A program made the position numbers and the translations under genes. A stretch of 41,955 bases of DNA from a virus: IMG/VR virus record IMGVR_UViG_3300033816_000498, positions 1 through 41,955 of that record; one strand, written 5' to 3'. The notes under the pieces are model-generated. The model had not been told where the DNA came from, did not search any database, and worked only from the letters and a program-made list of their open reading frames with translations. The stretch's first letter is position 1, and every line of letters starts with the position of its first letter. Shown piece after piece: positions 978 through 27,292 of the stretch.

Positions 978-1262
978 ATGGCAACTAAAAAGGTAGTAGA
1001 GCCTCCTAAGAAGGAGCACCCACAAAAGGCAATCACTAATATCTTGATGCGTATAGTAGCAGTGTTTGCTGCTTCTGGTCTATCAGTACTTGGTGCTGGA
1101 GCAGTTGTTGGAATTGACACAGTTCAGGCAGTGTTCTTAGCAGGACTATTAGGCGTAGCAACAGTCATTGAAAGACTGGCAAGGGCTTTTTTGGACGATG
1201 GAAAACTCACATTGGCAGAGATCAATGATGCGTTTAAAACGGTAGATAAAAAGGCTAATTAG
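978..1262 (+). CDS. Small membrane protein, holin-like candidate
   Basis: This 94-residue protein has a Lys/Pro-rich cytosolic N-terminus, two Ala/Gly/Val-rich hydrophobic segments (about 23-44 and 47-65) and a charged C-terminus resembling a short EF-hand-like acidic turn (DDGKLTLAEINDAF). The start was set at ATG 978, just after a strong AAAGGAGG site, rather than further upstream in the same frame. It follows the 769-975 gene by 2 bases. The pair looks like a two-component membrane (holin/antiholin-type) module; function is inferred from topology only. Confidence 0.65.
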   Translation: MATKKVVEPPKKEHPQKAITNILMRIVAVFAASGLSVLGAGAVVGIDTVQAVFLAGLLGVATVIERLARAFLDDGKLTLAEINDAFKTVDKKAN

Positions 1263-1339: not shown

Positions 1340-1864
1340 ATGACCTGTATTGCTGTAGTAAAACATGAAGATAAAATCTACATGGCTGGAGATCGTGGAG
1401 CATCAGACGATGGTACTATTCTAGCACTTGATGCACCAAAGGTTTGGAAGATAGGTCCTTATCTTATTGGCTATGCTGGATCAATGGACGGAGAAAGAAT
1501 CCGTTTTAACTTTAAGCCAAGTGCCCCTAACATTAAAGATACAGATAAGTTTATGCAGACAAGGTTTATTAAAGAACTCAAAGAATTTTATAATGAATTC
1601 TGGGTTGACACATCCAAAGACGGAGATCTTGGTTTGATTATTGCAGTTCGTGGAGAGATTTACGAACATAGTTCTGGAGACATGTCTTTATCTAAGTATA
1701 TGCTGCCTTATCTTGCTATGGGATCTGGAGCAGAGTATGCCTATGGGGTTTTATATGCAACAGATAAGCAGAAAAATGCAAGAAATAGAGTAGTCCAAGC
1801 AGTTAATGCTGCAATTAAATTTAACCCATCTTGTATGGGCCCAGTTGACGTAGTAAGCCTTTAG
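1340..1864 (+). CDS. Proteasome/HslV-like Ntn hydrolase
   Basis: This 174-residue protein is about the length of HslV. Removal of Met1 would expose Thr2, the N-terminal nucleophile of the proteasome-beta/HslV family. Counting Thr2 as Thr1, an Asp falls at 17 (MAGDRG) and a Lys at 33 (APKVWKI), exactly the T1/D17/K33 triad of this family. GSGAEYAYGVLYA near residue 130 matches the conserved Gly-Ser-Gly region of HslV. It has its own promoter. No HslU, ClpX or other unfoldase partner is in the window, so it would act alone, with a host ATPase, or on small peptides. Family membership is fairly sure; the substrate is unknown. Confidence 0.82.
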   Translation: MTCIAVVKHEDKIYMAGDRGASDDGTILALDAPKVWKIGPYLIGYAGSMDGERIRFNFKPSAPNIKDTDKFMQTRFIKELKEFYNEFWVDTSKDGDLGLIIAVRGEIYEHSSGDMSLSKYMLPYLAMGSGAEYAYGVLYATDKQKNARNRVVQAVNAAIKFNPSCMGPVDVVSL

Positions 1865-1873
1865 TAGTATACT
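1845..1873 (+). promoter_or_regulatory. Leaderless promoter
   Basis: TTGACG at 1845-1850, a 17-nt spacer and TATACT at 1868-1873 are followed after exactly 6 nt by ATG 1880. Transcription should start at or next to the start codon. Confidence 0.75.
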
Positions 1874-1879
1874 TATTAT

Positions 1880-2098
1880 ATGAGCGAAGAATTTGAAGAG
1901 ATACTAAAAGATATTAAGAACATTGAGTCAGACTTTGACGAGTTTGAGATCTGGCTTGAAAATGGAATTGAGCGGGGATGGATAACTGAACCGTTCTGTA
2001 ATACTCATGAAGGAGATCCCTACATGACAGATGAAGAAGCAGCAGAATGGGAAGAAGGCGGAGACCCATGCCAAGTGGTTTTAAAAATCAAACAATAA
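1880..2098 (+). CDS. Small acidic protein, unknown
   Basis: This 72-residue, very acidic protein is rich in E/D and W (EEFEEILKDI, DEEAAEWEEGG). No family is recognised. There is no Shine-Dalgarno sequence; the ATG lies 6 nt after TATACT, so the mRNA should be leaderless. It precedes the secreted protease gene by 20 nt and may be co-transcribed with it. Confidence 0.7.
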   Translation: MSEEFEEILKDIKNIESDFDEFEIWLENGIERGWITEPFCNTHEGDPYMTDEEAAEWEEGGDPCQVVLKIKQ

Positions 2099-2118
2099 CA
2101 ACAAACAAGGAGAATAAA

Positions 2119-2994
2119 ATGAAGAAAGCACTACTAGCAATACTATCAATTGCAATTGCATTTACAGCAGTTGCCCCAGCACAAGCACAGGATGAGAGAG
2201 TCTTAGCAATCATTGACTCTGCCATTAACTCAAATAACTTTCCATCAATAATTCATGAAGTTTGTTTTACAACAGTAAAGAGCATGTCATGCCCTAATGG
2301 TCAGTTGTTTATGGAAGGACCAACGGCAGCATCAGCGCCATGGCCAATGCATAAGAATAAGACAACTTTTGACCTAAACAATGCGACATTCCATGGTGAT
2401 GCTATGGTTAAGTCCGCCTTGACAGTAAATCCAAACTTAAAGATTGTATTTATTCGATTTAACGATGTCACAACTCTTGGAAACTCACGAGGAGATGCAA
2501 AAGCCCTGGCCTTGGCATTTGATTGGGTATCAAAGAATGCATCTAAGTACAGCATCGATGCTCTTTCAGTAAGTCAGTCCTCAGTAAGTGCAGGAAATCT
2601 TGCACTGTGTACAAGAGATACAGTTACCATTAATGCAGTAGCATCATTGAGTGCTAACAACATTCCAGTTTTTGTTGCAACTGGCAATGACCGTCGAACA
2701 GATGTTATCGGATTTCCATCATGCGTTAATGGTGTAATTCCTGTTGGAGCACTTGCAAATGCAACTCAACTTGAAAGAGCAACCAATACAGGACCTGGCC
2801 TTGCGATGGTTTCACCTGGTAAGGTAAGCATCACAAAGTATAATGGGTCTCCAACAGATACTGCTGGAAGTTCTGTAGCAACTGTAGTTTCTGCAGCATC
2901 CTATGTAAATCGCAACACCTTTAAAACTTTTGGAGAGTATCTATCATCTCTTCCAAAGATTTTAATTGGTACAGCATCATACATTCGTAACTAA
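2119..2994 (+). CDS. Secreted subtilisin-like serine protease (S8)
   Basis: This 291-residue protein has a classic signal peptide (MKK, hydrophobic core, A-Q-A at about residue 23). The S8 motifs appear in order: catalytic Asp33 in AIIDSA, His92 in HGDAMV, the oxyanion Asn in ATGND, and Ser252 in DTAGSSVA, corresponding to GTSMA. Two pairs of Cys may form disulfides. There is no clear propeptide, and the mature enzyme would be a compact catalytic domain. ATG 2119 was chosen because it follows AAGGAG and starts the signal peptide. A phage protease exported by the host could attack surface proteins or help release; that role is inference. Confidence 0.85.
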   Translation: MKKALLAILSIAIAFTAVAPAQAQDERVLAIIDSAINSNNFPSIIHEVCFTTVKSMSCPNGQLFMEGPTAASAPWPMHKNKTTFDLNNATFHGDAMVKSALTVNPNLKIVFIRFNDVTTLGNSRGDAKALALAFDWVSKNASKYSIDALSVSQSSVSAGNLALCTRDTVTINAVASLSANNIPVFVATGNDRRTDVIGFPSCVNGVIPVGALANATQLERATNTGPGLAMVSPGKVSITKYNGSPTDTAGSSVATVVSAASYVNRNTFKTFGEYLSSLPKILIGTASYIRN

Positions 2995-3029: not shown

Positions 3030-3102
3030 TGCCCTATAACTCAGTTGGTAGAGTGCCGAACTGTTAATTCGGATGTCCCTGGATCGAGGCCAGGTGGGGC
3101 AG
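3030..3102 (+). tRNA. tRNA-Asn (GUU)
   Basis: The cloverleaf folds by hand: acceptor TGCCCTA/TGGGGCA, D stem ACTC/GAGT around AGTTGGTA, anticodon stem CCGAA/TTCGG with loop CTGTTAA (anticodon GTT), and T stem CCTGG/CCAGG with loop ATCGAGG. The discriminator is G and no CCA is encoded. Confidence 0.9.
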
Positions 3103-3113
3103 CAAGGATAGTG

Positions 3114-3162: not shown

Positions 3163-3828
3163 ATGTTAAACACCAATGGTCCTGACACACAAAGTAACAG
3201 ACCACATAAGTTTTTTGAAAGATATCTAGATAATGATTTAGATGAACTTGCTAAGTTTTTAGAAGTAAAGTACCAACTAATTAAGGACGCACAACTTCGT
3301 GGTGTAAGCACAATGGAAAATGACGAAGGATTCTGGTTAGAGTCTGGAAGTTTGTCAACTGTAAAATGGAGAGAGTACAATGTGTTTCAACTTTATCATC
3401 CTTCTCTGCATAAGTTATACTCAGAATTATCAAATACAGTTAAAGAGGCATGTCTTTATTACGGAGTAGATTTTGAAAAACAACAATATTATGTTCAAGG
3501 TTGGTTTAATATTAATGAAGCAGGAAATGGAAAACTGAACTGGCATGATCATGGTGCTCCAGGGGCTCCTAATTTTCATGGATACTATTGTGTAAAGGCT
3601 GAACCATCAACCACCTATTACAGACTTTTTGGTGATCCAAACAAAGAAGTTGCAAACCATAATATTGACAATAGGATGATTGTTTCAGAAATGGGTCATC
3701 CACACGCCCAGGGTGATTGGGACTGGCCTGGATCAAGAATTACAGTTGCTTATGATATTCAGCCTCTAAGGTCTTTGCTGAATGCTGGTAAGCATACGAT
3801 AGAACAGCATTGGATACCATTGCTTTAA
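3163..3828 (+). CDS. 2OG-Fe(II) oxygenase (PF13759-like)
   Basis: This 221-residue protein has an iron site visible as NWHDHGAP (H-x-H/D region) near residue 125, a second His in GHPHAQGDWDW near 187, and an Arg for 2-oxoglutarate in SRITVAYDI. This layout fits the putative 2OG-Fe(II) oxygenase family common in cyanophages and aquatic phages. It differs from the P4H-like copies elsewhere in the window, which have Y-x-N-D-D-Y-x-G-G. The substrate is unknown. It is followed by a 28-residue peptide gene and a carbamoyltransferase, possibly one transcription unit. Confidence 0.8.
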   Translation: MLNTNGPDTQSNRPHKFFERYLDNDLDELAKFLEVKYQLIKDAQLRGVSTMENDEGFWLESGSLSTVKWREYNVFQLYHPSLHKLYSELSNTVKEACLYYGVDFEKQQYYVQGWFNINEAGNGKLNWHDHGAPGAPNFHGYYCVKAEPSTTYYRLFGDPNKEVANHNIDNRMIVSEMGHPHAQGDWDWPGSRITVAYDIQPLRSLLNAGKHTIEQHWIPLL

Positions 3829-3927: not shown

Positions 3928-5361
3928 ATGCTAATATTAGGTATTAATGAAACCACTCATGACGCATCAGTCTCTTTAATTAAAGACGGCGAGATACTTT
4001 TTGCAGGGCATGCAGAAAGATACAGTAAGAAAAAAAATGATTGGTTTACTAACAAGGAACTAATTAAAGATGCTCTGCAATACGGGTATCCAGATAAAAT
4101 TGCATACTATGAAAAGCCTTTACTTAAGAAACTTAGAGTAAAGACTAAGGGTGGATTCGGTGGCGACAGTCCTTGGTTTGAGTCTACAGAATTAGGGAAT
4201 CTGCCAAGAAAGAACTTTGGACATCACTATTCTCATGCAGCAGCAGGGTACTATACAAGTTCATTTAATGATGCCTGTATTGTGGTACTTGATGCAATTG
4301 GTGAATTCAATACCTCAACAATATGGGTTGGTGAAGGTGACAAGGTTAAACTTAAATATAAGCAAAACTATCCAGTTAGTTTTGGATTATTCTATTCAGC
4401 CTTCACTCAATTAATTGGTCTTATGCCAAATCAAGAAGAATATATTATGATGGGTATGGCAGCCTATGGTGACTGGAAGAAACATTATCTAAAAGTTAAT
4501 AAATATTTTGAGTCAACATCACACCAAAAATATAACTTTCACAAGGGTATTCATGATTGGGGAGTTATAGAAAATGATCAGGACAGGTTTGACATTGCAG
4601 CAGCAGTTCAATATGTTTATGAAAGAAGACTGTTAGAGTTTATGTCGTATGCTAAGTCAATTACTGGTAAGAACAACTTAGTATTTATGGGTGGTTGTGC
4701 CCTTAACTCTTCAGCAAACACATCTCTATGGAATATTTTTGATATGATTTGGATTATGCCTAACCCAGGAGACGCTGGTAGTTCTTTGGGTGCAGCAGCA
4801 GCCTTGTACGGAAAGCACCTTGACTGGAAGACTCCATATCTTGGCTATGATCTTGGAGGAGAGTATCCTGTTCAGCAAATTGTGGACGGTATACTAAAAG
4901 ATGGAATCGTAGCAGTAGCAACAGGAAGAGCAGAGTACGGACCAAGAGCACTAGGAAATAGAAGTATCCTTGCAGACCCAAGAGATCCACTAATTAAAGA
5001 CAAAGTTAATTTAATTAAACAGAGAGAACTCTTTAGACCATTTGCTCCAGTAGTTATGGAAGAGTGTGCCTCTAAATGGTTTGATATGGACTTTACAAGC
5101 CCATATATGCAGTATACGGTCAAGTGCCTTCAGCCTGAGAAGATACCTTCTGTTGTCCATGCAGATGGAACATCAAGAGTTCAGACTGTAAATAAAAATC
5201 AGCACCGTGGGCTCTGGAGAGCAATCAATAAATTTTATCTTGAAACTGGTGTGCCAGTCTTACTAAACACTAGTCTTAATATAAAAGGTCAACCACTTCT
5301 TAATGATGAAATTGATATTATTAAGTGGGAAAAGGAATACAATTTCAAGATCTGTAGGTAG
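3928..5361 (+). CDS. NodU/TobZ-type carbamoyltransferase
   Basis: This 477-residue protein has the N-terminal Kae1-like ATPase half: LGINETTHDASVSL, the HHYSHAAAGY metal/ATP motif near residue 95, LDAIGEFNT, MGMAAYG and GGCALNSS. The C-terminal half has YGPRALGNRSILADPR, RELFRPFAPVV and LLNTSLNIKGQPL. All landmarks of the carbamoyl-phosphate-dependent O-carbamoyltransferase family are present, and it is somewhat shorter than NodU (~550). Relatives carbamoylate sugars, antibiotics or, in some viruses, hydroxymethylated DNA bases. No base hydroxymethylase or glycan target is identifiable here, so the acceptor is open. Its ribosome site is TTTGGAG. Confidence 0.9.
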   Translation: MLILGINETTHDASVSLIKDGEILFAGHAERYSKKKNDWFTNKELIKDALQYGYPDKIAYYEKPLLKKLRVKTKGGFGGDSPWFESTELGNLPRKNFGHHYSHAAAGYYTSSFNDACIVVLDAIGEFNTSTIWVGEGDKVKLKYKQNYPVSFGLFYSAFTQLIGLMPNQEEYIMMGMAAYGDWKKHYLKVNKYFESTSHQKYNFHKGIHDWGVIENDQDRFDIAAAVQYVYERRLLEFMSYAKSITGKNNLVFMGGCALNSSANTSLWNIFDMIWIMPNPGDAGSSLGAAAALYGKHLDWKTPYLGYDLGGEYPVQQIVDGILKDGIVAVATGRAEYGPRALGNRSILADPRDPLIKDKVNLIKQRELFRPFAPVVMEECASKWFDMDFTSPYMQYTVKCLQPEKIPSVVHADGTSRVQTVNKNQHRGLWRAINKFYLETGVPVLLNTSLNIKGQPLLNDEIDIIKWEKEYNFKICR

Positions 5362-5397: not shown

Positions 5398-6051
5398 ATG
5401 GCAGCAAAAGGTAGTCTAGAAGCAATCATAGAGATTGCAAAGAAAGAAGTGGGCACAATCGAAGGCCCAAAGGATAATGAAACAAAGTACGGTGCATGGA
5501 TCAAGGTAAACTTTCAACCATGGTGCCAGTCATTTGTTTCTTGGTGTGCATTTACTTCGGGAGTAAAATCATTCCCTAAGTCTGCATCAACAGTCCAAGC
5601 AGCAGATTGGTTTAAGAAGAATGAACGTTGGTCAGATGCTCGTAATGATGATCCAACTCCAGGAGACTGGATTTATTTTGATTTCCCAGATGACGGTGTA
5701 AATCGTATTTCGCATGTTGGTCTTTGCATTAAGAACAATGGCGATGGAACTATTCAGGTTATTGAAGGAAACACTTCAGGAACTGCAAAGGGAGACCAGC
5801 GCAACGGCGGAATGTGCGTAGAGAAGACTCGTGCATATGTAAAGAATAACAAGAAGAAGTTAGTGAATGCTGTAGTTGGTTGGGGTCGTCCAGTATACAC
5901 TGGCGAAGAAAATGCTCCATTACTAAACAAGGTGGCAGCAACCGCAACAACACCAGCAAAGGCCACATCAGCAGATGCTGCGAAGAAGTCTGCAAAGCCT
6001 ACTACAAAGAAGTCTTCTGGTGGCGGAGGAAAGGGTAGTGTGGCCCTATAA
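5398..6051 (+). CDS. CHAP-domain endolysin
   Basis: This 217-residue protein has a CHAP amidase/endopeptidase domain over about residues 8-165: Cys43 in PWCQSFVSW, His106 in RISHVGLC and the acidic partner in IEGNTS. This is the Cys-His-Glu/Asn triad that cleaves peptidoglycan. The remaining ~45 residues are a low-complexity Ala/Lys/Thr/Ser linker ending in SGGGGKGSVAL, with no recognisable wall-binding repeat. There is no signal peptide, so export depends on a holin. It has a strong ribosome site (AAAGGAGG). The next gene begins on its stop codon, coupling lysin and membrane protein. Confidence 0.88.
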   Translation: MAAKGSLEAIIEIAKKEVGTIEGPKDNETKYGAWIKVNFQPWCQSFVSWCAFTSGVKSFPKSASTVQAADWFKKNERWSDARNDDPTPGDWIYFDFPDDGVNRISHVGLCIKNNGDGTIQVIEGNTSGTAKGDQRNGGMCVEKTRAYVKNNKKKLVNAVVGWGRPVYTGEENAPLLNKVAATATTPAKATSADAAKKSAKPTTKKSSGGGGKGSVAL

Positions 6052-6363: not shown

Positions 6364-6978
6364 ATGACAACACAGGTGTCTCTAACAAAGCCAACATATT
6401 TGGCGGGTGGATCAGTTGCAGTATATGAAAATGCTTGGGAAGATGGATATACAACAATTAATGACATCATTAAAATGACAAAAGATATTTCATTAAATGT
6501 AAAATTTTTTCCTTCACAGACAAACGCTGATCCTCTGAACACTCGTGAACAATCAATACGAACTAGCCATAGTCTATCAATAAGTCGATATGCAATTTTT
6601 AACAAAAAAATGCAATCTATTAATGATAAATGCTATAGTTTAATTTCTTCAGCAGTTGAGAACTACAAAGAAATTTTTAAAATAGAGCAAGAAATAAAGA
6701 ATACAGAGCCATACACCCTTTTAAGATATTCTGGTGGAGAACAGTACGGCTTTCACTATGATGGTGGAACGGGCAGCAAAAGAAGTATCTCTGTTTTAAT
6801 ATACTTAAATGATGATTACGAAGGCGGAGAAATTGAGTTTCCAAACTTTAATTTAAAAATTAAACCAAAGGCAGGAACGCTAATGTTATTCCCATCAAAC
6901 TATGCATATGGCCACATTGCTCATCCAGTAACTTCTGGAACAAAGTATGTTGTAGTGACATGGCTACACGATAGGTAA
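6364..6978 (+). CDS. 2OG-Fe(II) oxygenase, prolyl-4-hydroxylase type
   Basis: This 204-residue protein has its double-stranded beta-helix core in the C-terminal 75 residues: His131 and Asp133 in FHYDGG, the LNDDYEGGEIEFP hairpin, IKPKAGTLMLFPS, His187 in AHPV and Lys194 as the 2-oxoglutarate anchor. The N-terminal ~120 residues are less conserved and may set substrate choice. It is one of eight 2OG domains in the window. It has a weak ribosome site and is likely translated by coupling from the upstream tiny gene. Confidence 0.85.
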   Translation: MTTQVSLTKPTYLAGGSVAVYENAWEDGYTTINDIIKMTKDISLNVKFFPSQTNADPLNTREQSIRTSHSLSISRYAIFNKKMQSINDKCYSLISSAVENYKEIFKIEQEIKNTEPYTLLRYSGGEQYGFHYDGGTGSKRSISVLIYLNDDYEGGEIEFPNFNLKIKPKAGTLMLFPSNYAYGHIAHPVTSGTKYVVVTWLHDR

Positions 6979-6982
6979 ATAA

Positions 6983-7168
6983 ATGGCAATATATGAATAT
7001 GACTGTATGTCTTGTGCAAAAAGATATACAAAAGAAAGATCAATAAAGGACTCTGACCCAGGATATAGTTGTTTAGTCTGTAATTCTTCGTTAGTTCGTG
7101 TATACTCTAGTGTTGGAGCAGTATTTAATGGAAGTGGATTTTATTCCACAGAAAATAGGAAAAAATGA
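6983..7168 (+). CDS. FmdB-like zinc ribbon protein
   Basis: This 61-residue protein begins with IYEYDCMSCAKRYTK and has a second CLVCNSS knuckle, the layout of the FmdB/CxxC-CxxC-SSSS regulatory zinc ribbon family. The C-terminus GSGFYSTENRKK also fits that family. Its stop overlaps the next ATG by 4 nt, indicating translational coupling. The role in phages is unknown. Confidence 0.8.
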   Translation: MAIYEYDCMSCAKRYTKERSIKDSDPGYSCLVCNSSLVRVYSSVGAVFNGSGFYSTENRKK

Positions 7169-7779
7169 TAACAAGTATTCCAGAAGGACAAATATGTCAA
7201 GCGTTTGATCCAAGAATGATTAAAGATGAAAAAGCACTCAAAATGCACAATACAAATGAGCAGCCAAACACCTCCTGTTTAGCACCAGCATACGTTTATG
7301 TAGAAGGAAAACATGGGAAAAAATTCTTGTGTGACGGTCACTACTATTATGAGTTATACATGAATAGAATTTGTTATTCAGCCCCAAATCATTCTGTGAG
7401 AGAAATTTCACAATTTATAATAGATGAAACAGAAAGAGTTAAAGAAACTTTTGCAAAAAATGTAACAAGTACAGAAACATTTGGTCACGAATGCTCTCTC
7501 ACTAATTATTTTAACTTAGGTGGTAGCGGTTGCACTGCTGATGCTTTGGTAAAAGTAAACCCTATCAGGGTTCCTGTTGGGAAAATAAACTTTACCTCAA
7601 CAGTAGACAGAGAAAATCTTTCAGCAGATATTTTTTATTGTAACTTTCATTATAGAAGAACTTATTATAGATACGTAAGTAATGGTCTTGTGTTTGAAGA
7701 TTATCATAAAGTGTTAGACGAAAGATATAGAATGACCATGACACTTGCTGAAGAGGCAGCAAGACTTAAATACGTATAA
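7165..7779 (+). CDS. Two-module zinc-binding protein, paralogue 1
   Basis: This 204-residue protein starts with MITSIPEGQICQAFDP. Two modules of the pattern C-x(3-6)-A-x-V...F-x-C-x-x-H can be seen: TSCLAPAYVYVEG ending FLCDGHYYYE, and GCTADALVKV ending FYCNFHYRR. These resemble the single module of the DUF7455-like protein at 8446-8688, so the protein looks like a tandem duplication of that metal-binding unit. It shares the start, ERVKETFAKNVTSTET and the C-terminal LDERYRMT with the next gene. Function is unknown. Confidence 0.75.
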   Translation: MITSIPEGQICQAFDPRMIKDEKALKMHNTNEQPNTSCLAPAYVYVEGKHGKKFLCDGHYYYELYMNRICYSAPNHSVREISQFIIDETERVKETFAKNVTSTETFGHECSLTNYFNLGGSGCTADALVKVNPIRVPVGKINFTSTVDRENLSADIFYCNFHYRRTYYRYVSNGLVFEDYHKVLDERYRMTMTLAEEAARLKYV

Positions 7780-7789
7780 AGAAAATAAA

Positions 7790-8362
7790 ATGATAACAAG
7801 TATTCCAGAAGGGCAGATCTGTCAAGCATTTGATCCAATGATGATAATGCCAGAAAAAACATCACACATTACAAAATTTTTAAAAAAGCCTAGCACATCT
7901 TGTGTCGCTCCAGCATATGTATACATTGAAGGAACACACGGAAATAAGTTTCTATGTGATTATCATTATCATTATGAAAAATTTAATGGAAACTATATTG
8001 ACTATAGTGAGAATGGATTAATTGATAAAAGAGAGATAGTCCTTATTGATGAAAGAGAAAGAGTTAAAGAAACTTTTGCAAAAAATGTAACAAGTACAGA
8101 AACCACAGGGAAAACCTGTTTCCTAGGAAGCGATAGCGGAAGAACAACTAATACATCAAATAACTGTATTGCAGAAGCACTTGTTAAAGCAACAGACAAG
8201 AATGGCAATCCTGTGTTTTTTTGTAATTTTCATTTTAGAAAAATTTATTACAGGTATGCCAGCAATGGCGAAAACTATGAAGATTTTTATGAGATTCTAG
8301 ATGAAAGATACAGAATGACCAGCACAATTATTGAAGAATCCCTAAACCTAAAGTGCATATAG
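7790..8362 (+). CDS. Two-module zinc-binding protein, paralogue 2
   Basis: This 190-residue paralogue of the preceding gene has identical landmarks: MITSIPEGQICQAFDP, FLCDYHYHYE, ERVKETFAKNVTSTET and NCIAEALVKATD ending FFCNFHFRK. ATG 7790 was chosen because it starts the conserved block. It lies 10 nt after the previous stop. The shared ERVKETF block is nearly identical in DNA too, pointing to a fairly recent tandem duplication. Confidence 0.75.
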   Translation: MITSIPEGQICQAFDPMMIMPEKTSHITKFLKKPSTSCVAPAYVYIEGTHGNKFLCDYHYHYEKFNGNYIDYSENGLIDKREIVLIDERERVKETFAKNVTSTETTGKTCFLGSDSGRTTNTSNNCIAEALVKATDKNGNPVFFCNFHFRKIYYRYASNGENYEDFYEILDERYRMTSTIIEESLNLKCI

Positions 8363-9703: not shown

Positions 9704-10110
9704 TGTTTGAATATTATGTAAAGAAAGTAACAAAGGTCGTTGATGGAGATACCATTGATGTCGATATTGATTTAGGGTTTGACATTTCTTTTAGTTCAAG
9801 AGTCAGACTGGCTGGAATTGATACACCTGAGTCTCGTACAGCAGACAAGGCTGAAAAGGCTTTAGGGCTGGAAGCAAAGGCTTATTTGAAGGCTGCCATT
9901 GAGAGTGCTAAGTCTGTAGTTATTAAGACAGAGAAGATGAACTCGTCTGAAAAGTTTGGTCGTATTCTTGGTTGGGTTTATCTTGATGGAGACACCGTTT
10001 CTATTAATGATAAGATGATCAATGATGGACATGCTTGGGGATACATGGGAGAAACAAAGGTCAAAGATTTTGACGCTTTGAAGAAGGCCAGAGCAAAGTC
10101 TGGAAAGTGA
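9703..10110 (+). CDS. SNase-like (thermonuclease) nuclease
   Basis: This 135-residue protein contains the staphylococcal nuclease core: VVDGDTIDVDID (Asp for calcium), RVRLAGIDTPES (Arg and the Asp-x-Pro-Glu motif), KFGRILGWVYLDG (second Arg) and INDGHAWGY. There is no signal peptide, so it acts in the cytosol, perhaps in host DNA/RNA degradation or DNA processing. ATG 9703 was chosen for its GGGGAG site and TAATG overlap with the upstream gene. Confidence 0.88.
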   Translation: MFEYYVKKVTKVVDGDTIDVDIDLGFDISFSSRVRLAGIDTPESRTADKAEKALGLEAKAYLKAAIESAKSVVIKTEKMNSSEKFGRILGWVYLDGDTVSINDKMINDGHAWGYMGETKVKDFDALKKARAKSGK

Positions 10111-10676
10111 TGACAGATTTTAAAATAAATGTAGTAGAAAATTTTATAACTTTAGAAGATGCCGACACACTTGTAAGTTATATAAAAAATAACTGTTTAG
10201 ATAAAAACAAATTTTATGTACCCCTAAGACATAGAATTGAGAATAAGGTAAGGTATGAGTCACACATACCAGAACGAAACACATTCTCAGATCACTCAGA
10301 AGTACTACATTTATTAAAAAAATACTCTGATAAATTTTTACTAGAGTGTAATCTTTTTTTTAAAGATAGTGAAGAGATATACCTAGCATCACTTTTTATG
10401 CTAATGTTGGGACCAGAAAGCATTCTTACGGAGCATGCAGACAACCATAAGGGGGCAGAGCATTTATTTAGAAGCGGGATTATTTATTTAAATGAAGATT
10501 TTGATGGAGGATATTTAAATTTTCCACATAGAAATCTTACAATTAAGCCAAAAAGGTTAAGTCTTGTTATTTTTGAGTCTACAGAGGTACACAAGATCAC
10601 TGAGGTTTTATCTGGTGTAAGAATGTCAATGCCTATTTGGGCAACGAACATAAAAGAAAAAGAAATATCCTATTAA
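10110..10676 (+). CDS. 2OG-Fe(II) oxygenase, P4H type
   Basis: This 188-residue protein has iron ligands in LTEHADNHKG (His, Asp) and VHKITEV (His), the hairpin LNEDFDGGYLNFPHRN, IKPKRLSLVIFES, and Arg in GVRMSMPIW. ATG 10110 overlaps the SNase stop (TGATG); a GTG 3 nt earlier is possible. It is more divergent than the 12.9-14 kb pair. Substrate unknown. Confidence 0.82.
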   Translation: MTDFKINVVENFITLEDADTLVSYIKNNCLDKNKFYVPLRHRIENKVRYESHIPERNTFSDHSEVLHLLKKYSDKFLLECNLFFKDSEEIYLASLFMLMLGPESILTEHADNHKGAEHLFRSGIIYLNEDFDGGYLNFPHRNLTIKPKRLSLVIFESTEVHKITEVLSGVRMSMPIWATNIKEKEISY

Positions 10677-11964: not shown

Positions 11965-12246
11965 ATGAATAGGTATGAGTGGAAAGATGATGCTGCATGC
12001 TTGGACTATGACACAAATGTATTCTTTGACAAGTACGAAGAAGATGAACTTCTAAGACCTGCAGTAGACCTAATGTGTTCTAATTGTTCTGTAAGAAAAG
12101 AGTGCTTTTCTGTAGGAATATCTGGGAAAGAATGGGGAGTTTGGGGTGGTGTATACTTGGAAAATGGAGAAGTCTCTAAAGAGTTTTCTAGCCACAAGAG
12201 TAAGACTGACTGGGGAAAAACTTGGCAGTCGTTAACAATGGAGTAA
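11965..12246 (+). CDS. WhiB-family [4Fe-4S] regulator
   Basis: This 93-residue protein has four conserved cysteines: Cys12 (DDAACLD), Cys38 and Cys41 (LMCSNCSV) and Cys47 (RKECFS). The turn GVWGGVYLENGE follows. This is the full Wbl signature: iron-sulfur cluster, then the G-[VI]-W-G-G beta-turn that contacts sigma factor. WhiB proteins are almost restricted to actinobacteria and their phages, so this is one of the best host markers in the window. Mycobacteriophage WhiB homologues are known regulators of host WhiB functions; here the target is unknown. Confidence 0.9.
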   Translation: MNRYEWKDDAACLDYDTNVFFDKYEEDELLRPAVDLMCSNCSVRKECFSVGISGKEWGVWGGVYLENGEVSKEFSSHKSKTDWGKTWQSLTME

Positions 12247-12487: not shown

Positions 12488-12891
12488 TTGAGTTAATTTT
12501 TATATGTATCTTGTCTTCTTTAACCTTGCTTTTCTTATCCCTATATGTTCTACAAAAAAGGGCTAACAAGGCTCTTATCGCTAAAACTTTAGAGGCTTTG
12601 TTGATGCAGCAATTAACCAGTAATATAAACAAAACAGACAAAGATCAGTCTAATGAGGATTTTTTGAAATTTGTTTCAGATTCTCGTGATTGGGCATACC
12701 AATATATAGAAGAGGTTCAAAAAGGATTAGATAATTTTATTACTGATATTGAGCCTGAGATATCCTACTTTGATGAATATGGGGTGGTCGGATCAGCCTA
12801 CCCACACTACCACTCAATGAAGAAAATTTCAGGAGCATATAAAGAATTAAAGAAACTACTGCCAGAAGATTATGGTAGAATAGATACATGA
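12484..12891 (+). CDS. Membrane-anchored helical protein, unknown
   Basis: This 135-residue protein has an N-terminal membrane helix (residues ~2-22), then a soluble helical domain with DWAYQYIEEVQKGLDNF. It overlaps its neighbours on both sides by 4 nt (ATGA), so it is part of a translationally coupled set ending in two oxygenases. Confidence 0.6.
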   Translation: MIELIFICILSSLTLLFLSLYVLQKRANKALIAKTLEALLMQQLTSNINKTDKDQSNEDFLKFVSDSRDWAYQYIEEVQKGLDNFITDIEPEISYFDEYGVVGSAYPHYHSMKKISGAYKELKKLLPEDYGRIDT

Positions 12892-13490
12892 TTAAAAGTC
12901 CTTCAGAAAAAGATGAGATATATTTAGCAAATGTTGCAAAAATAGGAAACTCTACAGACAATATACAGTATATAGAAAAAGTTTTGTCCGAAGAAGAGCA
13001 CACAAATCTTCTTAATTACGTAAAAAATGCCAGATCTTGGGAAAAGCAACCATGGGAAGCCATAACTATTGAATCAGAAAGTTTGCCTGAAGAAATTCTC
13101 ACAACACTAAATAAAGTATTTCAACTTGTTTATAAAAAGTCTGTAGAACTTTATAATGTGGATATTAATCCTTTTCATAAGTCTGCAATACATCTGGTTA
13201 AGTTTGTAAAGGGTTTTTCTTTAGATCCTCATGTGGACACCCTTTCGTCTGAGGGTAATCATATTGCTTCAGTATATTATATTAACGACGACTATACTGG
13301 TGGAGAAATCAACTTCCCAGACCATAAGTTACAAATTAAACCAAAACCTAATAGTTTAATAATTTTCCCTGGAAATGAAAATTATTTGCACGAAGTGCTT
13401 GAAATTGTAGACAATGACAGATATAGTTCAGCCATGTGGTTTCAATTTACTGGCTCCAGTTTTAACAAAAAAGCAGAATGGTATAATTAA
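12888..13490 (+). CDS. 2OG-Fe(II) oxygenase, P4H type (tandem copy 1)
   Basis: This 200-residue protein has iron ligands in LDPHVDTLS (His, Asp) and LHEVLEI (His), the hairpin INDDYTGGEINFPDH, IKPKPNSLIIFPG and Arg in DRYSSAMWF. It is a clear paralogue of the following gene: both share GNS-x-DNI near the N-terminus, LS-EEH and QPW. The start overlaps the previous stop. Confidence 0.85.
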   Translation: MIKSPSEKDEIYLANVAKIGNSTDNIQYIEKVLSEEEHTNLLNYVKNARSWEKQPWEAITIESESLPEEILTTLNKVFQLVYKKSVELYNVDINPFHKSAIHLVKFVKGFSLDPHVDTLSSEGNHIASVYYINDDYTGGEINFPDHKLQIKPKPNSLIIFPGNENYLHEVLEIVDNDRYSSAMWFQFTGSSFNKKAEWYN

Positions 13491-13493
13491 TAT

Positions 13494-14048
13494 ATGACAA
13501 ATAAAAACTTAGGAAACTCTGTAGACAATATAAAAATCACAGAAAATGTTTTATCTAAAGAAGAGCATAAGCAACTACTTGACTATGCTATTAATATAGA
13601 TTCTTGGAATGTTCAGCCTTGGGGAGTTCAAACATTTTCACCAGAAAAAATGCCAAAAGAAATTTCTAAAATTCTGGATAAGGTTTTTATGCTTGCTTAT
13701 CAAAAATGTATAGACTCCTACAATGTAGAACTTTATTCTTTTGAAAATGAAAGAACGCCTTTAGTTAAATTTGAAAAAAATTATAAAATGAACGAGCATG
13801 CAGATACCGCAGGAGATTTTGCAGTTATATACTATCTTAACGATGATTATGATGGAGGAGAAATAAACTTTATGGATCATAACCTAAAGATTAAGCCAAA
13901 GTCTAACAGTTTTATTACCTTCCCTAGCAATTCAGACTACTGGCATGAGGTGCTTGAAAATACTTTAAAAGAAAGGTATTCTGCTACTCAATGGTTTAAG
14001 TATGCTGGATCCAGTGTGCAAAGACCAGCACTAGGTTTAGTCAGATGA
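13494..14048 (+). CDS. 2OG-Fe(II) oxygenase, P4H type (tandem copy 2)
   Basis: This 184-residue protein has iron ligands in MNEHADTAGD (His, Asp) and YWHEVLEN (His), the hairpin LNDDYDGGEINFMDH, IKPKSNSFITFPS and Arg in ERYSATQWF. It lies 3 nt after its paralogue. The N-terminal halves are as similar as the cores, so the whole gene was duplicated. Confidence 0.85.
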   Translation: MTNKNLGNSVDNIKITENVLSKEEHKQLLDYAINIDSWNVQPWGVQTFSPEKMPKEISKILDKVFMLAYQKCIDSYNVELYSFENERTPLVKFEKNYKMNEHADTAGDFAVIYYLNDDYDGGEINFMDHNLKIKPKSNSFITFPSNSDYWHEVLENTLKERYSATQWFKYAGSSVQRPALGLVR

Positions 14049-18544: not shown

Positions 18545-18672
18545 TGCCAAAGAAAAAAGCAACAGCGTTTAATCCTATTCAGATTAAAGATGGATGGATT
18601 GTTAGACTGTATAAAGATGGTAGAGTTAAGTCTAAGATAGCACCATACGAACCAAAGAATCCTAAAAAGTAG
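18544..18672 (+). CDS. 42-residue basic protein
   Basis: MPKKKATAFNPIQIKDGWIV followed by RLYKDGRVKSKIAPYEP. Its ATG overlaps the upstream stop (TAATG), and a beta-hairpin (DGWIVRLYKDGRV) is apparent. Its end overlaps the end of the convergent SGNH gene by 11 nt. Confidence 0.65.
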   Translation: MPKKKATAFNPIQIKDGWIVRLYKDGRVKSKIAPYEPKNPKK

Positions 18673-19696
18673 AGTACCCCTTAAATAATTCTGCTACGTG
18701 GTGTTGAAAATGAATTCCAGGATGTGGTGAGAAATTAAGTATTTTATCATAACTATAAACAACATCAGAACCTTGTTCCCAAGAAGGATGATCAACAAGT
18801 TTAGAATTATGTGATAAATTACAAAAACTAGTTGGAAATTTGCCATCGTCTGTGTGATAGTTATCAAACTCATCATCAGCAAACTTTATATAATTTTTTA
18901 GTTTAAAATTAGGAATTTTAACTAAAACATCCATTAACGCAGAACTTGCATTGTCCCATGTTGACCAATAAAAGTCTATTCCATGTGAATAACAAAAATT
19001 TTGTATTAGTGATATTGATTCAATAGAGTCAGATATCAACTGATGTGGTGAAAAAACATTTTCCATGTAAGGTAAACTTTTTTCTTTTGAATTAAAAAAA
19101 AGAGAATAATTTTGTTTTTTAAAAAACATTTCTTTTCTAGTACGATTATAAACGATCAAAGGTTTAAAAGAAATCTGCCGATCCCTTTCTTCTTGTTTCC
19201 TTGGATCTATACTTTTGGTGTTATAATAAAAATCTGCATCTGATATTAAACTAGTTCTAAAAAATGGAGGAAATAGCGCAAAAATAGTTTTTGGTTTATT
19301 ATATTTTGAAACATATTTAACTATTAATTCAGATGCTTGTCTTATTGTAATACCAGGAACCCCTAAATTCAAAACATCTTGGTTTATTTCTGAACTTAAA
19401 ATACTTGGCCAAGTTCCGCTTTCTGGCACCCCAACACCAAAGGTGTAAGAACATCCTACAGCAATAATTTTAGCATCTTTTTTTAAGTTACCACGAAATC
19501 CCAACTCATTAATTGTATAATCATTGACTTCGTCGACTTGATTTACAGGACTATAAAATCCTTTAAGATCAAATGGGTTGTCCTGGTTTGGTAAAAAACA
19601 AGAGAGTTGTTGTGTGTCTGTAAAATTATTAAGTATGTAATTACTTTTTTGATAATTTTCATAAACATTTAAAATATTTTTATTCGATAAATCCAT
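18662..19696 (-). CDS. SGNH/GDSL-like hydrolase, paralogue 1
   Basis: This 344-residue protein has block I IIAVGCSYTFGVGVPESGTW near residue 78 (Gly-Cys-Ser in place of Gly-Asp-Ser, Ser nucleophile), LNLGVPGITIRQ (oxyanion Gly/Asn region), STWDNASS, and block V SPHPGIHFQHHVAELF with His. The usual block V Asp two residues before His is Ser here. There is no signal peptide, so it is cytosolic or virion-bound. Such GCSxTxG proteins act as esterases or acyl/deacetylases on glycans. Leaderless: TATAAT 6 nt before ATG. Confidence 0.75.
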   Translation of the reverse strand: MDLSNKNILNVYENYQKSNYILNNFTDTQQLSCFLPNQDNPFDLKGFYSPVNQVDEVNDYTINELGFRGNLKKDAKIIAVGCSYTFGVGVPESGTWPSILSSEINQDVLNLGVPGITIRQASELIVKYVSKYNKPKTIFALFPPFFRTSLISDADFYYNTKSIDPRKQEERDRQISFKPLIVYNRTRKEMFFKKQNYSLFFNSKEKSLPYMENVFSPHQLISDSIESISLIQNFCYSHGIDFYWSTWDNASSALMDVLVKIPNFKLKNYIKFADDEFDNYHTDDGKFPTSFCNLSHNSKLVDHPSWEQGSDVVYSYDKILNFSPHPGIHFQHHVAELFKGYSTF

Positions 19697-20941: not shown

Positions 20942-21955
20942 TTATTTATCTTTATCATTATATAAATTGTAAAAAAAATCTGCAATGTGCTCTTGAATGT
21001 GTATCCCTGGGTGAGTATTTTTAAATGTTTTTTCTCCATTTATAAAAGCATAATCAGAACCTATATTCCAAGATGGATGATTTTTAAACTCGTGTTCATG
21101 GGTATGAGGACTACAAACAGAGTCTACTAGTTCACCAAGGCCCTTATTATAATATAGGCTAGGAGAGTATAAAGATGTAAAATTTTTTAATTTAAAATTT
21201 TCCATTTTGCTTAATTCGTCTAAAATATAAGAACTTGGTGAGTGCCAAGTTGTCCAATATAGTTTTATGTTGTTTGATAAACAAAATGATTCTAAAATAT
21301 AGATAAGGTTTAAGGAATTTAGAATTAATTGATGTGGAGAAGTATAATCTTCTATATATTTTTGATTTTCTACTTCCATAAAAAATGATCTATTATCTTT
21401 AACTATAGTTGGGTTAGAGTATATATATTCTAGGCTATCTCTTGTTCCCATGTCTCCTCTATTGACTTTTGATTTATAAAATTCTTTATCTACTACAACC
21501 ATACTTCTAAAAAAATCTGGCATTAAACAAAAAATTTCTTTTGGCATTTTGTTGGTCATACAATATTGAATAATATTAGTACAAATGCTTTCTACTGAGG
21601 CTCCAGGACTGCCCAAGTTTGTGACACTTTTGTTAATTTTTTTTCCTAGTAATTCTGTCCACATTCCGAATTCTGGAACACCAAGACCAAAGGTTATGGA
21701 GCAACCAGATGCAAAGATTTCTGAATCTTCATCAATCTTTCCTCTGCAACCAATAGAATTTGTTTCATATGTATTGACTTCATCAATTGTTTCCACAACA
21801 TTGTCTTTAAAATTACGCTGAGAACTCACAATATCTTTACGAAATGGCTTATGCAGCCCAACCTCTTTTGTATTTGAAAAAAACTTTTTTAAATACCAAC
21901 TGTTTTCGTAATTTGATTTATAAAAACTTAAAATATCTCTTGTTAAAAATTTCAT
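20942..21955 (-). CDS. SGNH/GDSL-like hydrolase, paralogue 2
   Basis: This 337-residue protein has block I EIFASGCSITFGLGVPEFGMW, NLGSPGASVES, LYWTTWHSPSSY and block V NTHPGIHIQEHIADFF; the block V Asp position is Asn. It shares with paralogue 3 a stretch of identical protein (PKEIFCLMPDFFRSMVVVDK and onward) encoded by 102 identical nucleotides (21452-21553). TATAAT lies 5 nt before the ATG (leaderless). Likely cytosolic; substrate unknown. Confidence 0.75.
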   Translation of the reverse strand: MKFLTRDILSFYKSNYENSWYLKKFFSNTKEVGLHKPFRKDIVSSQRNFKDNVVETIDEVNTYETNSIGCRGKIDEDSEIFASGCSITFGLGVPEFGMWTELLGKKINKSVTNLGSPGASVESICTNIIQYCMTNKMPKEIFCLMPDFFRSMVVVDKEFYKSKVNRGDMGTRDSLEYIYSNPTIVKDNRSFFMEVENQKYIEDYTSPHQLILNSLNLIYILESFCLSNNIKLYWTTWHSPSSYILDELSKMENFKLKNFTSLYSPSLYYNKGLGELVDSVCSPHTHEHEFKNHPSWNIGSDYAFINGEKTFKNTHPGIHIQEHIADFFYNLYNDKDK

Positions 21956-23329: not shown

Positions 23330-24334
23330 TCAAACTATTGTATTATTTTGACTATATCGGCTATAAAAAAAATCTGCCACATGCTGATGAAAATGAATTC
23401 CTGGGTGATATTCTTTTGGCGCTTTTTTATAATTTATAACAGAATAGTCAGATCCTTTTGACCAGCACAAATGATCCTTAAATTCAGATTCGTGAAATAA
23501 ATCACAATGTTTCTCTATATTATCTCTAAAACTATCTGATTTGCTAAACATTATAAAAGGTAAAAAATTTTTTAATTTGAAGTCTTTTAACTTTACTAAT
23601 TCTTCCATAATTAAAGAACTCGGCCTATGCCAAGTTGTCCAATATAATTTTATATTATTTGATAAACAAAATGATTCTAAGATATAAATATCATCTATAG
23701 CATCTAAAATTAATTGGTGTGGGGAAGTCGAGTCTTCTATATATTTTTGATCTTTTATTTGCATAAAAATATGATTTTCATAATACATAAGGCTAGGACT
23801 ACAGTAGGTTAGTTCTAAAATCTCAGACTCTTTAAGGTCTCCTCTATTGACTTTTGATTTATAAAATTCTTTATCTACTACAACCATACTTCTAAAAAAA
23901 TCTGGCATTAAACAAAAAATTTCTTTTGGCATTTTGTTATTCATACAATATCGAATAGTATTATGACAAATAGTTCGTACGGATGCTCCAGGGTTTCCTA
24001 GATTCATAACATTCTTATTGATTTTATCATTTAAAATGTTCGTCCATCTTCCATTTTCTGGAACACCAATACCAAAAGTTATAGAGCAACCAGAGGCTAA
24101 AAAATCTGCATCTTTATAAACTTCTCCACGAAGACCAATTTCATTGATTTCATATGTGTTGTCCTCATCAACTGTAGATATAAAAGCATTTTCGTTTGAT
24201 TTATTATCAACAACTCCCACCTGATATGAATCATATCGTCCCACATGGCCCGTACCTGTAAAATATTTATTTAGGTATCTACTATTTTTGCTGTTATTTT
24301 TATAAAAATGTAGAATGTCTTCTGTTAAATACAT
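23330..24334 (-). CDS. SGNH/GDSL-like hydrolase, paralogue 3
   Basis: This 334-residue protein has block I FLASGCSITFGIGVPENGRW, NLGNPGASVRT, LYWTTWHRPSS and block V EYHPGIHFHQHVADFF; the block V Asp position is Glu. It is closest to paralogue 2. It lies 12 nt after the sulfotransferase gene on the same strand with no promoter of its own, so sulfotransferase and hydrolase are probably made together, suggesting a shared substrate. Confidence 0.75.
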   Translation of the reverse strand: MYLTEDILHFYKNNSKNSRYLNKYFTGTGHVGRYDSYQVGVVDNKSNENAFISTVDEDNTYEINEIGLRGEVYKDADFLASGCSITFGIGVPENGRWTNILNDKINKNVMNLGNPGASVRTICHNTIRYCMNNKMPKEIFCLMPDFFRSMVVVDKEFYKSKVNRGDLKESEILELTYCSPSLMYYENHIFMQIKDQKYIEDSTSPHQLILDAIDDIYILESFCLSNNIKLYWTTWHRPSSLIMEELVKLKDFKLKNFLPFIMFSKSDSFRDNIEKHCDLFHESEFKDHLCWSKGSDYSVINYKKAPKEYHPGIHFHQHVADFFYSRYSQNNTIV

Positions 24335-26677: not shown

Positions 26678-27292
26678 TTAAACTACCGTAAACCAAATAG
26701 GCAGAGTGTATCTATCACCAGATAAAACCTCTTTAACTTCATGAGCGTAGTGCATATTCCCAGGGAATACGACTAAGTCACCAGTCTTTGGCTTAATACA
26801 AACATCATGTGTTTCAAACTTAATCTCTCCACCCTCATAGTTATCATTTAAATAAATAATAATTGGTAAGTGGTTTTCTGTTACATATCCAAGGTCATCC
26901 ACATGTGTGTTTAAGTAAGATCCAGTCTCCCAGTGAACAACGCCCAAGAATTCTTCTTTTTCTGCTATCTCAATATCTTCTAAGTTGTATGCTTTTTTTA
27001 TTTCATCTTTAACTCTGCCTATAAGATTGGACTTATCTGGCAGACCATCATACTTACGCATGTAGGTTAATGGCTCTCCATTAGGACCTTTTTGAGAAAC
27101 AAAACGGTGAGAGTGTCTATCTTCTAGACCATCCATAAGATAAGATATTTCTTCTTGTGTTAAAAAATTAGGAATAGTTATAATGTTTTCTGCAGAGTTT
27201 CCTAATTTATTTAAAAATTTGTGATATGACTCAGTTCTTTCGATTGAGTCAGGATTATTTCCTACTGGCTTGTTGTTGATGGCATATGACAT
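26678..27292 (-). CDS. 2OG-Fe(II) oxygenase, P4H type
   Basis: This 204-residue protein has iron ligands in LNTHVDDLG (His, Asp) and YAHEVKEV (His), the hairpin LNDNYEGGEIKFETH, IKPKTGDLVVFPG and Arg in DRYTLPIWF. It is closest to the C-terminal half of the fusion protein encoded two genes downstream (FPGN-x-HY and LPIWF/MPIWF), so the fused domain probably derives from such a stand-alone enzyme. Leaderless: TATAAT (plus 27299-27304), 6 nt, ATG. Confidence 0.87.
   Translation of the reverse strand: MSYAINNKPVGNNPDSIERTESYHKFLNKLGNSAENIITIPNFLTQEEISYLMDGLEDRHSHRFVSQKGPNGEPLTYMRKYDGLPDKSNLIGRVKDEIKKAYNLEDIEIAEKEEFLGVVHWETGSYLNTHVDDLGYVTENHLPIIIYLNDNYEGGEIKFETHDVCIKPKTGDLVVFPGNMHYAHEVKEVLSGDRYTLPIWFTVV

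Follow-up and report, generated by a model that had tools for sequence, protein, structure and literature searches.

The locus and its neighbours

The window, i.e. the whole stretch of 41,955 nucleotides of the IMG/VR virus record IMGVR_UViG_3300033816_000498 that was analysed, carries a gene for a predicted exported subtilisin-like protease between the gene of a small acidic protein and a tRNA gene. The place that the protease occupies, from the stop codon of the acidic gene to, usually, the tRNA-Asn gene, is here called the slot. The features of the region are:

978..1262, + strand: holin-like membrane protein of the lysis region (phrog_443 holin, E=0.0028)
1340..1864, + strand: HslV-like (proteasome-type) peptidase, a conserved upstream neighbour outside the slot
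1845..1873, + strand: sigma-70 type promoter, TTGACG-17-TATACT, 6 nt 5' of the ATG at 1880; a leaderless mRNA is predicted
1880..2098, + strand: acidic protein, left anchor of the slot; 72 aa, pI 4.05; predicted helix and small domain with a CxxH...C motif
2109..2113, + strand: Shine-Dalgarno-like sequence AGGAG, 5' of the subtilase start codon
2119..2994, + strand: exported subtilisin-like serine protease, the cargo of the slot; 291 aa, predicted signal peptide at about residues 1-23; D33, H92, N190, S252
3030..3103, + strand: tRNA-Asn(GTT), right edge of the slot, 35 nt after the subtilase in the window; here related loci become alike again in DNA sequence
3928-5361: carbamoyltransferase
5398..6051, + strand: CHAP-domain endolysin (Pfam, PHROG)

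The earlier note had placed the protease in a phage late region, and a terminase, a holin-like gene and a CHAP endolysin are indeed found nearby; in related contigs the terminase large subunit and the holin-like gene are upstream and the endolysin is downstream. The proximity to lysis genes is circumstantial, since varied genes (carbamoyltransferase, 2OG oxygenases) lie between. The product of 978..1262 also matches phrog_26427 "nuclease" at 2e-25, a doubtful name. The HslV-like Ntn peptidase at 1340-1864 (MTCIA start) is a second, intracellular protease that accompanies the slot in nearly all cases (44-99% identity); distant relatives of it are found in Salmonella phages, Vibrio phages and others.

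Elsewhere the phage carries an APS-kinase-like gene. The products of 6364-6978, 10107-10676, 12888-14048 and 26678-27292 resemble 2OG-Fe(II) oxygenases, and Pfam confirms 6364-6978 only. The adjacent genes 7165-7779 and 7745-8362 both carry MITSIPEGQICQAFDP near their starts, probably as the result of a tandem duplication. The three genes at 18662-19696, 20942-21955 and 23330-24334 (- strand) encode proteins of roughly 334-344 aa whose N-termini are alike, and these may be paralogues.

The window also contains a whiB gene at 11965-12246 (PF02467, E=7.7e-11), as expected of an actinobacteriophage. Such genes have been used as a marker of actinobacterial hosts for freshwater actinophages (PMC6802176), so WhiB points to a host of this kind. 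Several slot proteins share a secretory N-terminal repeat (YTCIKSGKKLVW-like) that is present in 83 of 101 genomes of one order, mostly of 1-2 Mb; in a class-wide sample it occurs in 6 of 118 genomes, all six from that same genome-reduced order. The hosts are presumed, from these sequence markers, to belong to this actinobacterial order, which would correspond to 'Ca. Nanopelagicales' (PMC10202952).

A subtilase without a propeptide

The open reading frame at 2119-2994 is real, and the earlier assignment of its product to the S8 subtilases is supported by Pfam, PHROG and the predicted fold. Peptidase_S8 (PF00082) matches it with E=4.6e-6 (26.6 bits, against a gathering cut-off of 21.8) and PHROG 3677 "protease" with 5.9e-10; among proteins of solved structure, intracellular subtilisins come closest (best 7xr8, 1.4e-7). 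The AlphaFold model, with a mean pLDDT of 90, has the alpha/beta fold of subtilisins and aligns to sphericase, BPN' and an intracellular subtilisin at Z ~25, and to many subtilisins at Z 24-25.

The catalytic residues had been named correctly. D33, H92, N190 and S252 are invariant in 29 aligned relatives, which reach down to about 24% identity, and so are M1-K2-K3, G189 and the cysteines C58 and C202. The triad stands in the D-[ST], H-G and G-[TS]-S contexts of the S8 family, together with the oxyanion Asn. Among 120 distinct S8 loci there is no substitution in the catalytic columns where these are covered (D in 115, H in 120, N in 118 and S in 118); the 7 sequences that miss a column are trimmed by the chosen start codon (5) or lie at a contig end (2). 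Further, dN/dS between relatives is about 0.1-0.2, indicating purifying selection. The alignments support a catalytically intact subtilase at 2119-2994.

The signal-peptide pattern (K-K, a hydrophobic stretch, AxA) is conserved among the 29 aligned subtilases, and it is solely from this pattern that we infer export. The apparent lack of a propeptide holds up as well. The catalytic Asp is residue 33 of the precursor here and residue 31-35 in all 115 S8 sequences that show this column, which leaves no room for a propeptide; an I9-type propeptide would place about 70 residues between the signal peptide and the catalytic domain. The model aligns from the start of mature subtilisin, its residue 25 corresponding to subtilisin residue 24, and the N-terminal arm is short.

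A similar layout is seen in cells. Cellular S8 relatives from actinobacterial genomes of 0.7-1.8 Mb have a signal peptide followed directly by the catalytic domain, also with the propeptide absent, and no acidic gene is found within about 1.5 kb on either side of them. The phage subtilase profile matches these propeptide-less proteins with E-values down to 2e-51, and homologues with signal peptides are found in 23 of 296 genomes of the presumed host order. A scan of bacterial genomes with two short subtilase patterns gave distant matches only, and the search of the class and order was more productive. In a tree, the phage S8 proteins form two separate clades, neither of them nested within cellular sequences.

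The statement that secreted subtilases are rare in phages has to be qualified: no match was found in 50,697 isolate phage records, but one scan of IMG/VR gave at least 76 loci. The acidic protein has no match in isolate phages either, so for this gene pair there is no cultured representative or annotation to draw on.

The acidic protein and its promoter

The gene at 1880-2098 is real too, and the very acidic 72-residue protein (22 D/E, 5 K/R) described before has hundreds of relatives, 389 stretches in one scan. In 30 diverse members W25, G29, C40, T42, H43, G45, Y48, M49, E52, W57, G60-G61-D62-P63-C64 and V67 are invariant. The predicted model, mostly confident, consists of a long helix and a small C-x2-H...C domain, and the protein may bind metal through C40, H43 and C64. 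It matches no Pfam family; a Foldseek search against PDB gave no convincing structural relative, which concerns the match list of that search only. Neither sequence nor model contains a signal peptide, so the acidic protein would remain cytoplasmic while the enzyme is exported.

The size, the charge and the proteasome-type neighbour had suggested a Pup-like (ubiquitin-like) tag. We rejected this, as the C-terminal GGE/GGQ is lacking and a helix with a motif domain is predicted. The family is absent from 395 genomes of the presumed host class, a set without a positive control, and found once in 296 genomes of the presumed host order; it is therefore essentially phage-borne. A second acidic type of 67 aa (MNHSHEDLSPEEQEF...CCHVIRL; L022, L181 and others) substitutes for the 72-aa type before the same subtilase clade.

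That one leaderless promoter serves both the acidic gene and the subtilase gene had been proposed from the window, and the architecture, on which the proposal is based, proves to be conserved. The motif TTGAC(A/G)-17-TATA(C/A)T-6-ATG is present in 155 of 185 distinct upstream regions of acidic genes, compared with 10 of 1537 control ORFs. In the 155 the spacer is 17 nt in 154, and the gap between the -10 box and the ATG is 6 nt in 149. An SD-like motif precedes 98 of 120 subtilase starts, versus 9 of 185 acidic genes. The promoter is retained in several phages whose gene before the acidic gene is not hslV-like, hence it is not a by-product of that coding sequence. This arrangement supports co-transcription of the subtilase with the acidic gene.

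The promoter is found at 146 of 154 loci with exported cargo but at only 9 of 31 without (Fisher p=4e-15, a value inflated by the relatedness of the loci). At seven loci (L252, L258, L261, L273, L292, L324 and L255) a tRNA-Thr follows 7-13 nt after the acidic gene. Here the -10 box, where seen, abuts or nearly abuts the ATG, and the promoter may therefore serve the tRNA instead.

One slot with exchangeable cargo

To describe what lies behind the acidic gene we anchored a census on it, taking the best 80 loci of each scan, which gave 185 distinct loci. As these share ancestry, the counts below do not represent independent events. The slot contains an S8 subtilase in 120 loci, another exported protease in 23, another exported protein in at least 11, and no exported gene in about 31.

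The 23 other proteases include 6 that are trypsin-like with TAAHC (Pfam Trypsin 1e-8 in L094 and 8e-6 in L181) and 16 with HExxH. By family, metzincin-like cargo (HExxHxxxxxH or a related HExxH) is seen in 7 loci, peptidase-MA-like cargo in 8 (PF13485 at 1.4e-6 in L271, below its cut-off) and a further HExxH family in 2. In L257, where the acidic gene ends at 3674, the peptidase-MA-like cargo has HGATH for HExxH; the motif Glu is lost and the protein is possibly inactive. The exported proteins of the remaining group, at least 11, belong to no known enzyme family. Since such non-proteases also occupy the slot, its common theme may be "exported" and not "proteolysis". In L286, L219, L232, L242, L243, L239, L244 and L322, which carry cargo of this kind, it is often followed by tRNA-Gly, -Glu or -Thr and not by tRNA-Asn.

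The flanks stay constant while the cargo is swapped: for many swapped cargos the HslV-like protein is 82-95% and the CHAP endolysin 79-95% identical. For example, a locus with metalloprotease cargo (L149) is 94% identical to the window in the HslV-like protein, 88% in the carbamoyltransferase and 95% in the CHAP endolysin.

The edges of the slot are sharp. Of the S8 loci that could be assessed, 94 of 111 have a tRNA-Asn no more than 2.6 kb after the acidic gene, as do 14 of 21 loci with another protease; most often it lies 5-40 nt past the cargo stop codon. When the trypsin-like locus L275 is compared with the S8 locus L025, DNA identity is 88% right to the end of the acidic gene, the cargos are unrelated, and identity is again 96% in the tRNA-Asn and 90% in later genes. 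The same borders are seen between L221 and L211. These edges suggest that cargo is exchanged by recombination at the flanks, which would involve the conserved acidic gene on one side and the tRNA or the sequence downstream on the other. In L291 and L309 the tRNA-Asn follows only 4-11 nt after the acidic stop codon, and both borders align to the S8-bearing L152; read from these alignments, the two are empty alleles. The cargo is thus dispensable in some relatives. As the aligned loci show, the predicted subtilase is the cargo of a slot that in related phages is filled by unrelated exported proteases, by other exported proteins, or by nothing.

What the slot may do

Our preferred reading, in which we place about even confidence, is that the slot is an accessory locus of the phage for late extracellular proteolysis, probably freeing progeny from the host surface. 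The leaderless promoter would drive a single mRNA with the acidic protein first and the SD-led protease second. The protease would leave the cell via Sec and, without a propeptide, fold active once outside the membrane. Late in infection it would cleave host outer-surface proteins, and this might aid the holin and the endolysin in freeing progeny, or keep released virions off debris. The acidic protein would act in the cytoplasm, independent of the cargo. What counts for these phages, it seems, is that proteins are cut outside the cell, more than which enzyme cuts them.

The main rival is superinfection exclusion, where exported proteases would shave protein receptors from the infected cell, from neighbours or from debris, and swaps of protease class would track receptor types. 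We consider this unlikely, though a serious candidate: the export pattern and the intact active sites are compatible with it, rapid exchange of cargo beside constant neighbours is what an arms race would produce, and some phages dispense with the cargo; broad-specificity folds such as subtilisin and trypsin, however, would cut more than the receptor. Roles in nutrition or in the virion are less likely. The phage could make its host secrete proteases and so raise the supply of peptides during infection, and both the signal-peptide-bearing homologues in the presumed host order and the other metabolic genes of the phage (APS-kinase-like, carbamoyltransferase) would agree with this. However, enzymes secreted in open water benefit neighbours, and in the tree the two phage subtilase clades stand apart from the cellular sequences, so that we find the idea improbable. 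It is more improbable still that the subtilase acts as a protease of the virion or of its maturation, with the hydrophobic N-terminus anchoring it in a membrane or being lost during assembly. Phage tail sheaths do contain subtilase-like folds (PMC13118943, PMC9004378), but the sheath domain is described as lacking the triad (PMC13118943), which is invariant here, and the AxA signal-peptide pattern is conserved here.

The alternative that we find hardly credible is the one proposed in the earlier note for the acidic protein, namely a dedicated inhibitor of the subtilase or a substitute for its intramolecular chaperone. The predicted common mRNA and the opposite charges (pI 4.05, against 8.9 for the subtilase) speak for it, and the search for the gene pair in other phages was borne out in so far as the acidic gene precedes every subtilase locus found. 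The reverse is not true. The same acidic family precedes trypsin-like enzymes and metalloproteases of several kinds that take the subtilase's place, and it is retained where no exported gene follows, even where a tRNA comes directly after its stop codon; on 11 contigs (up to 105 kb) whose acidic gene has no exported neighbour, no S8 gene was found anywhere. A dedicated partner should occur only with its protease and co-vary with it, yet the distance correlation with the subtilase is r=0.29 for the acidic protein, against 0.50 for the CHAP endolysin and 0.35 for the HslV-like protein. Between L183 and L117 the subtilases are 92% and the HslV-like proteins 99% identical, but the acidic proteins only 54%; judging by such pairs, the acidic protein is swapped independently of the subtilase. 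The cellular homologues, with neither propeptide nor acidic partner, and the lack of a signal peptide on the acidic protein also argue against the idea.

Late extracellular proteolysis remains the reading we prefer, and a wider version of it can be proposed tentatively. An exchangeable locus for extracellular proteolysis might be a general late-infection component in phages of genome-reduced freshwater actinobacteria, with unrelated folds convergently recruited because surface cutting is needed for escape or for blocking superinfection; the acidic protein might then be a conserved late regulator, its gene supplying the leaderless start.

Comparison with known systems

What makes the locus interesting is not so much the subtilase itself as that unrelated exported proteases have converged on one slot. 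The presence of subtilases, trypsin-like enzymes and metalloproteases in the same place points to a shared need for proteolysis beyond the membrane. The hosts appear to be among the most common bacteria of lakes, and how their phages leave or defend cells is little understood. Further, the slot provides a natural collection of secreted, predicted propeptide-less subtilases. With its empty alleles and exact edges it also allows the exchange of cassettes next to a tRNA gene to be observed directly in metagenomes.

The phage enzyme resembles the subtilisins (PF00082; intracellular subtilisins, BPN') in fold (Z ~25), in Asp/His/Ser and in the oxyanion Asn. It differs in having a signal peptide without a propeptide, in its short N-terminus, in being phage-borne and in an identity of about 20%. 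With the propeptide-less S8 proteins of genome-reduced actinobacteria (e.g. L332, L339-L352) it shares the order of signal peptide and catalytic domain; these are, in contrast, cellular, lack the acidic gene and the slot, and lie on separate branches of the tree.

Freshwater actinophages described before are marked by WhiB like this phage (PMC6802176, PMC10202952). The words protease and peptidase are absent from the main text of PMC6802176, and the part of PMC10202952 considered mentions genes degrading host cell wall, proteins and DNA and names no protease. In the open-licence literature we found no report of a slot of this kind.

Accessory ("moron"-type) cassettes of phages and variable loci beside tRNA genes have their own promoter, variable cargo, conserved flanks and empty alleles. 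The slot is like them in its own promoter, in its variable cargo between conserved flanks and in being empty in some relatives. Unlike them, its type of cargo is constrained, mostly to exported proteases of several folds, and a fixed small gene at the left anchor provides the predicted leaderless start.
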